Assembly: GCF_022174665.1 (NCBI RefSeq)
Contig: NZ_CP076562.1
Location: 1,938,525-2,002,524, forward strand
Length of the DNA: 64,000 bases
Source of the DNA: Eubacterium sp. MSJ-33
GTDB lineage: Bacteria > Bacillota > Clostridia > Lachnospirales > Lachnospiraceae
Direction: 5' to 3'
The notes under the pieces were generated by a model. The model searched no databases, was not told the origin of the DNA, and worked only from the letters and a program-made list of their open reading frames with translations. The translations under genes were made by a program, and so were the position numbers. Within the stretch, counting starts at the first letter, position 1, and every line of letters starts with the position of its first letter. Shown here one piece after another: positions 4,875 to 38,692 of this stretch.

Positions 4875-4922
4875 TTTATTATCCTCCTTTATATGTATGC
4901 TAATGTGCAATATATGTATATC

Positions 4923-5068
4923 GGTTGGACATACGGAACTATTCTACGCAGACGCGCTCTCGCTCGGTTCATCACGCAGTGGTACTAAATTCGCGACAAA
5001 AACAGTCGCTCATTAAGTGCCAGCGTGCTTCAACGGTCTGCTTAAGAATCAGTTCCGTATGTCCAACC
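4923..5068 (-). repeat. Structured leader/repeat element, copy 1 (ptb-buk spacer)
   Basis: Outer arms ggttggacatacggaact (4923-4940) and agttccgtatgtccaacc (5051-5068) are a perfect 18-bp inverted repeat. The enclosed core, read on minus, runs from GCAGACC to GTCTGC. It contains CACGCTGG, GGCACTTAA, TTTAGTACCA and GCGTG segments that pair with each other, and an apical hairpin GCGAC-tgttttt-GTCGC. The same core recurs at 17624-17772 and 38481-38692 with different arms and a different apical stem. It lies 48 nt upstream of buk in the transcribed sense. The family is unknown to me. Confidence 0.85.
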
Positions 5069-5109
5069 ATATCTGCTATATCTTTCTGCACATTTGAATG
5101 TGCTTGTAA

Positions 5110-9582: not shown

Positions 9583-9639
9583 AATATCTACCTCTATTCT
9601 ATTTTTAATTTTCTATGATTCCATCACTGATTACAGAAC

Positions 9640-9800
9640 TTTGTTTTGCAGTTACCCGCATATTTTTTTCTGTATACGCACTCAGTCGGTGCGGAAACGC
9701 ATCCGCCGAATCTTTCGATCACGTTTCTCCTCGTCATCCCAAGTTTATTCCGTCCACCCGGGACCAGGCGCTAAGGTTCTTACCTTTCGAGTTCTGTGTC
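9640..9800 (-). ncRNA. glmS ribozyme/riboswitch
   Basis: On minus, the glmS leader contains TTAGCGCCTGG, then GACGAGGAGAAACG, then ATCGAAAGATTCGGCGGATG and a GC-rich stem, followed by AAAACAAAG near the 3' end. These are the hallmark conserved blocks of the glucosamine-6-phosphate-activated self-cleaving ribozyme. The expected cleavage is between A at 9772 and G at 9771, directly before GCGCC. The core ends about 60 nt upstream of the glmS start. Outer boundaries are approximate. Confidence 0.93.
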
Positions 9801-17571: not shown

Positions 17572-17623
17572 ACTAATTCCTTTCTCAATCAGTAACTGTG
17601 AAACATATATACATCTGTGGTAC

Positions 17624-17772
17624 AGTTTACACATGAAACATATTCAACGCAGACATGCTCTCGCTCGGTTCATCACGCAATGGTACTAAATTCATGACAA
17701 ACAAGTTTGCCATTCATTAAGTACCAGCGTGCTTCAACGGTCTGCTTTAGAATTATGTTTCATGTGCAAACT
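17624..17772 (-). repeat. Structured leader/repeat element, copy 2 (upstream of dnaJ-like gene)
   Basis: Outer arms agtttacacatgaaacat (17624-17641) and atgtttcatgtgcaaact (17755-17772) pair at 17 of 18 positions and are unrelated to the arms of the other copies. The core is nearly identical to copy 1 (GCAGACCGTTGAAGCACGC; GCGTGATGAACCGAGCGAGA), but the apical hairpin is ATGGCAAAC / GTTTGTCAT instead of GCGAC / GTCGC. Same RNA sense as the gene downstream. Confidence 0.85.
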
Positions 17773-17801
17773 ATACCCACTTCTATGAATTGTTTCACAA
17801 A

Positions 17802-38480: not shown

Positions 38481-38692
38481 AGCCAATTTTGAAGAAATAA
38501 CGTATATTCAGAGTCATGCAATATTTACCAATTTATATGCAGACCATTGGAACACGCCGGCACTTAACGAACAGTGTGTTTTTTCACTGTGAGTTTAGTG
38601 TCCGCTGCGTGTGGAAGTGAGCGAAAGCGCGTCTGCATAGAATTGTGTAATATTGTATGACTCTATGAGAAAATAAATATTCAAAATTGGCT
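38481..38692 (+). repeat. Structured leader/repeat element, copy 3 (mnmG leader)
   Basis: The core (about 38539-38636) starts GCAGACC and ends GCGCGTCTGC, with CACGCCGG, GGCACTTAA, TTTAGTG and CTGCGTG segments shared with copies 1 and 2. The apical hairpin is ACAGTG / CACTGT, a different sequence with pairing kept, and a GCGAAAGC replaces GCGAGAGC. Arms agagtcatgcaatattta / taatattgtatgactct enclose it. A further perfect 13-bp pair, agccaattttgaa (38481-38493) / ttcaaaattggct (38680-38692), lies outside. It ends 18 nt before the mnmG GTG start. Confidence 0.85.

Follow-up and report, generated by a model that had tools for sequence, protein, structure and literature searches.

A dispersed structured element of Lachnospiraceae with a conserved three-way-junction core and copy-specific paired arms

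The window, i.e., the whole stretch of 64 kb analysed here from the genome of Eubacterium sp. MSJ-33, contains three copies of a structured element, located 5' of buk in the gap between ptb and buk, 5' of a dnaJ-like gene and 5' of mnmG. For their identification we applied a covariance model with a seed of 24 copies from the MSJ-33 genome, the three of the window included. The scan of the window revealed exactly three matches, at 4922-5068 (-), 17624-17771 (-) and 38512-38663 (+). These are the three places given in the preliminary description, which had counted three copies; the total in the genome, however, is about 35. The sense strand, defined as GCAGACC...GTCTGC, is the minus strand for copies 1 and 2 and the plus strand for copy 3, and each copy is co-directional with the gene that follows it. 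In folding against dinucleotide shuffles, copies 1, 2 and 3 reached z values of -9.4, -8.7 and -8.6. The window also carries a glmS ribozyme/riboswitch at 9622-9783 (-), which was a strong Rfam match. The parts of the three copies are as follows.

4902-5095, minus strand: copy 1, full element from outermost stem to outermost stem, in the ptb/buk gap
4948-5041, minus strand: copy 1, conserved core (three-way junction, P1 GCAGAC/GTCTGC, long P2 hairpin, P3 with GNRA loop)
4923-4945, minus strand: copy 1, inner copy-specific arm, 3' side, pairing with 5045-5068
5045-5068, minus strand: copy 1, inner copy-specific arm, 5' side, pairing with 4923-4945
4902-4909, minus strand: copy 1, outer stem, 3' side; the plus strand reads AATGTGCA, complement of 5088-5095
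5088-5095, minus strand: copy 1, outer stem, 5' side; the plus strand reads TGCACATT, complement of 4902-4909
17597-17799, minus strand: copy 2, full element, 5' of the dnaJ-like gene
17597-17604 with 17792-17799: copy 2, outer stem
17649-17745, minus strand: copy 2, conserved core
38482-38691, plus strand: copy 3, full element, 5' of mnmG; outer stem 38482-38493 with 38680-38691
38539-38636, plus strand: copy 3, conserved core

The shared core and the copy-specific arms first described were found again at all three window copies. The intervals given earlier for copies 1 and 2 were in the right place but too short, since a further copy-specific outer stem lies beyond them (4902-4909/5088-5095 and 17597-17604/17792-17799). 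This stem, often of 8-16 bp, is the outermost part of the element. It is followed inwards by an internal loop, whose 5' side loosely retains a GTATAT-like sequence, by the inner arm, which is copy-specific and has about 15-25 bp, by P1 (GCAGAC/GTCTGC) and by a three-way junction with P2 and P3. P2 is a long hairpin (CACGC..GGTACTTAATGAG..CGAATTTAGTACC..GCGTG) with a copy-specific apical stem. It contains tandem G.A pairs (tandem GA/GA) in 65 of 71 non-seed sequences and 23 of 24 seed copies. P3 is a short hairpin with a GNRA loop, whose N and R positions vary among sequences. The loop is present in 76 of 77 non-seed sequences and in all 24 seed copies, as counted from alignment columns, the true loop lying one column 5' of the register of the model. 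Both motifs are present on the sense strand only; the long stem itself folds with equal stability on either strand. One copy (L275, position 1331938 of the MSJ-33 genome; model E 0.44) is highly divergent and has a long additional apical stem.

Covariation was analysed in 76 distinct sequences outside the model seed, derived from congeners and other genera. Changes on both sides were found for 36 of the 43 pairs, and 96.7% of the cells are paired, a value that leans toward the model structure because the alignment was fitted to it, the margin being very large. Double-changed cells numbered 815, compared to 220 +/- 17 after shuffling, none of 500 shuffles matched any of five covariation measures, and the paired share dropped to 24-48% when the pairing registers were slid by 1-3 columns. 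Within MSJ-33, arms pair with their own partner at a median score of 17 versus 3 across copies, the own partner being best in 26 of 29 cases. Thus, the compensatory change on which the preliminary description had based selection on a fold is present across the homologues, and the identical arms of a known transposable repeat, named there as the opposite outcome, were not found in MSJ-33. Judged from these alignments, pairing alone appears to matter in the arms, and the core appears to be conserved in sequence. A core far better conserved than its arms and present in many copies might be a trans-acting small RNA precursor that is cut out of many host transcripts at the arms, but a single small RNA would hardly be expected to have so many differing copies, and we consider this highly improbable.

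In the inner arms of MSJ-33 and its two sister species, Eubacterium sp. MSJ-21 and Lachnospiraceae bacterium UBA5902, G.U pairs outnumber A.C pairs by 70 to 22 (p 5e-7, related copies kept in). This asymmetry points to the sense strand as RNA, and a mutation bias linked to transcription could contribute. Together with the GNRA loops and an orientation of 23:3 relative to the flanking genes (see below), it points to a sense-strand RNA in mRNA leaders. Selection on a folded RNA or ssDNA, as proposed earlier, is supported for a sense-strand fold by the covariation, by the wobble pairs and by the GNRA loop and tandem GA, which occur on that strand only. On the other hand, G.U accounts for only about 2-4% of arm pairs, which is below the expectation for a helix selected purely as RNA and argues against a cis-RNA role.

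These nearly all Watson-Crick arms would also be in line with a pairing kept by DNA copying, in which one arm is rewritten from the other by template switching in the long palindrome. Joint replacement of paired blocks, as expected from such copying, was observed at several loci. At icd, carB (MSJ-21 versus the others), prfB and dapL, both arms are as divergent between species as those of unrelated copies; each species' own arms pair, chimeric combinations mostly fail and the core is largely retained. An exception to clean pairing is the icd copy of UBA5902, where the 5' arm has drifted from the 3' arm. The icd copy of MSJ-21 has kept an unusual apical loop despite its replaced arms. At one further locus a paired block of about 8 bp has changed in otherwise similar arms. 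The orthologous arms are therefore bimodal, either near identical or replaced, which is not predicted by slow compensatory drift. Such a pattern could arise by template switching within the palindrome, or a diverged allele may have taken the place of the former one. Donation by another copy was rejected, as no non-orthologous copy among those compared matches the replacement arms, and so was copying from elsewhere in the genome, since 15-mer matches gave only a chance-like scatter in the 15-28% of each genome compared. As a general explanation of the pairing, however, template switching is doubtful: the asymmetric core covaries too, G.U exceeds A.C threefold, and at other loci the arms retain an identity of 97-98% between species, a change slower than neutral. 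It is conceivable, though well below even odds, that the inverted-repeat arms are renewed in single events and arrive already paired while the core stays, so that each copy would bear its own dsRNA-forming barcode. To our knowledge, joint arm replacement has not been described as a property of other families.

In the MSJ-33 genome, the covariance model identified about 35 distinct places after removal of reverse-strand echoes, and a DNA search yielded 35 matching pieces at about 29 places. The sister species carry about 50 (MSJ-21) and about 45 (UBA5902) copies, and all 24 congeners gave matches, 2 to 43 each. Searching related Lachnospiraceae with the model, as the preliminary description had proposed, revealed a dispersed family present in 66 of 150 genera sampled. 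No family outside the Lachnospiraceae was found to have the element in samples from the order (246 genomes) and the phylum (299 genomes), which were scanned with stricter filters that may miss weak relatives. In one congener (G019), the arms are near perfect but unrelated between copies. On five of its contigs (C3, C6, C10, C19 and C21) copies are clustered with a spacing of 1-3 kb; some of these clusters flank one gene in opposite orientation, others precede successive genes of an operon. In a genome of another genus (G100), the arms are near-identical among many copies, as after recent amplification.

Most copies are found at the same place in all three sister species. In alignable orthologues the core is 97.3% and the arms are 97-98% identical, the arm value being biased upward because loci were picked by arm similarity and the core value less so. 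For comparison, the fastest codon position shows 76-82% and the others 96-99% identity. At most of the absent sites listed, ptb-buk aside, the loss of the copy looks like a deletion with remnants still in place, from which we conclude that many copies are ancestral. Palindromes of the element family without the core were seen at positions 235525 (L274) and 1661074 of the MSJ-33 genome; the latter is a deletion derivative, because the sister species keep the full core there. Between ptb and buk the element is present in MSJ-33 and MSJ-21 and missing from UBA5902 and from nearly all other ptb loci compared, with any copy nearby in 5 of 80. This pattern can be either gain or clean loss. Insertion into a pre-existing palindrome was rejected, as the UBA5902 site carries neither arm. 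A possible duplication of 4-7 bp was seen at ptb-buk only, and the outer stems differ among copies.

The location of the copies was compared with simple ORF calls, on which the following orientation counts rest and by which single assignments may err. In MSJ-33, 23 copies are co-oriented with both flanking genes and 3 read opposite to both (p 9e-5); the median distance between the end of the model and the next start is 58 nt. In other genera and the congener G019, 33 sense and 26 antisense copies were counted (p 0.43). The sense orientation before start codons noted earlier therefore holds for MSJ-33 but is not a property of the family in other genera. Of the 27 copies in G019, 4 lie between the same two genes as copies of the sister set, somewhat above chance, which could reflect either old retention or favoured sites. 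From translated starts we take the downstream genes to include buk, mnmG, purC, prfB, rpiB, trpD, icd, carB, feoB and dapL. They share no pathway, and regulation of one pathway by the element is not supported. The same applies to a specific control of the kinase-to-transferase ratio at ptb-buk, which had been suggested for copy 1, because about 30 unrelated genes have the element upstream. A protein- or ligand-responsive, riboswitch-like leader controlling a regulon would typically show such a conserved core with variable peripheral helices 5' of genes. It is improbable here, given these unrelated targets (buk, mnmG, purC, prfB, trpD, icd, carB, feoB and others), the lack of a terminator after the element and the antisense copies in other genera. 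The element is not an intrinsic terminator itself, because a U-run directly after the stem is lacking: a T-run of 5 or more follows the arms in only 4 of 97 copies, and none follows copy 1 on its sense strand.

We tentatively propose, with a probability of roughly 40%, that the element is a dispersed, originally mobile structured RNA of Lachnospiraceae which now acts in cis on mRNA processing and/or stability. On the sense strand it forms a long hairpin of outer stem, internal loop, inner arm and three-way-junction core, with GA-cis RNA as an optional insert. In MSJ-33 this hairpin lies mostly in mRNA leaders and intercistronic gaps near start codons. The long stem and compact core could be a processing site, at which an RNase III-like enzyme would cut both strands, and/or could protect the downstream message from decay at its 5' end. 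In this way the downstream gene would be expressed apart from its upstream neighbour. RNA processing, already considered for ptb-buk in the preliminary description, is plausible from the sequence comparison, and an effect on the message itself would fit best with a sense fold in leaders that has no terminator tail and no pathway logic. The sequence itself shows the fold, its covariation and conservation, the sense-strand signature and the location, and from these we infer both the processing or stability role and the mobile origin. The latter is likely because orientation is random in other genera, and for the same reason the cis role may be limited to the clade of MSJ-33.

The strongest rival is a selfish mobile hairpin, similar to MITEs or REPINs, that would fold as ssDNA or RNA in order to move and whose sites before genes would merely be tolerated; it explains the random orientation elsewhere and is a real possibility, though below even odds. 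It agrees with 2-50 copies per genome in a patchy distribution over 66 of 150 genera, with both orientations in other genera, with the near-identical arms of many copies in G100, and with presence/absence at ptb-buk and exchange of modules. Mobility is less easily reconciled with the slow evolution of most copies at the same site in sister species. Moreover, there is no identified terminal repeat, target duplication or partner gene, and a search of the MSJ-33 genome with PF01797 (Y1/HUH transposase) gave no match. Carriage by phages or plasmids is contradicted by blastn, which found no match in collections of either; a scan of one viral-contig set by pattern was also negative, which is a weak result because the pattern was strict. 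A single reverse transcriptase ORF (L326, 1039-2325, minus strand) was noticed; it resembles group II intron proteins, and Rfam detected no intron RNA linked to it. The cis-acting role on mRNA and the mobile hairpin are compatible, if a mobile family was retained in the MSJ-33 clade as leader elements.

Among known systems, REP/REPIN sequences with RAYT are likewise dispersed intergenic hairpins in many copies per genome. They are short, however, with conserved stems, REPs being 20-40 bp (PMC3733652), in contrast to an element of about 200 nt with conserved core and variable stems. Such a system was rejected here, as MSJ-33 lacks the Y1 transposase and the stems are not a short palindrome of conserved sequence. 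BOX, ERIC and other MITE-like repeats are intergenic, foldable sequences of about 100-250 bp which can alter neighbouring mRNA. Their copies have arm sequence in common, whereas the arms of the present element are copy-specific and covary. RNase III sites or 5'-stabiliser hairpins are long perfect stems in intercistronic gaps of polycistronic leaders. They resemble the element in stem length and intercistronic place, and their function is the one which, by analogy, is proposed for it; they differ in being confined to single loci, whereas the element forms a dispersed family built on a conserved three-way junction.

In a comparison with Rfam 15 at E up to 10, the three window copies produced nothing beyond chance matches, none reaching a gathering threshold, and no Rfam family matches the core, P1, P2 or arms of the element itself. 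No description was found in the literature accessible without subscription. The earlier statement that the element fits no Rfam family thus holds for the element itself, but a nested known RNA had been missed: some copies carry about 85 nt more in P3, and this additional domain matches GA-cis (RF02987) far above threshold. GA-cis has a consensus of 88 positions and is absent from all three window copies. The MSJ-33 genome contains it ten times, of which three are inside the element and the remainder alone or in tandem. Outside the element (L266, L267, L268-L271), it is intergenic or in leaders, with tandem arrangement at two places. At orthologous sites, GA-cis is found in MSJ-33 and missing in UBA5902 (L017); for the ldh, degV, icd and trpD copies it is missing in MSJ-33 and found in MSJ-21 and/or UBA5902. 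GA-cis is an optional module within the P3 loop, found at some orthologous sites and missing at others. It shares the intergenic and leader settings of the element in MSJ-33 and fits as a P3-loop module, but with about 88 nt it is just the optional insert and is also found alone. We know of no function assigned to it.

By sequence comparison, the element is a structured repeat that is new, widespread and not represented in Rfam. With it, a dominant gut family is seen to carry a widespread and strongly covarying RNA element that precedes dozens of housekeeping genes. GA-cis gains a structural context as an interchangeable domain of a larger RNA. Furthermore, the fixed core and the jointly replaced arms raise the question of whether long inverted repeats stay paired by copying or by selection, which is testable with an ordinary genome series.
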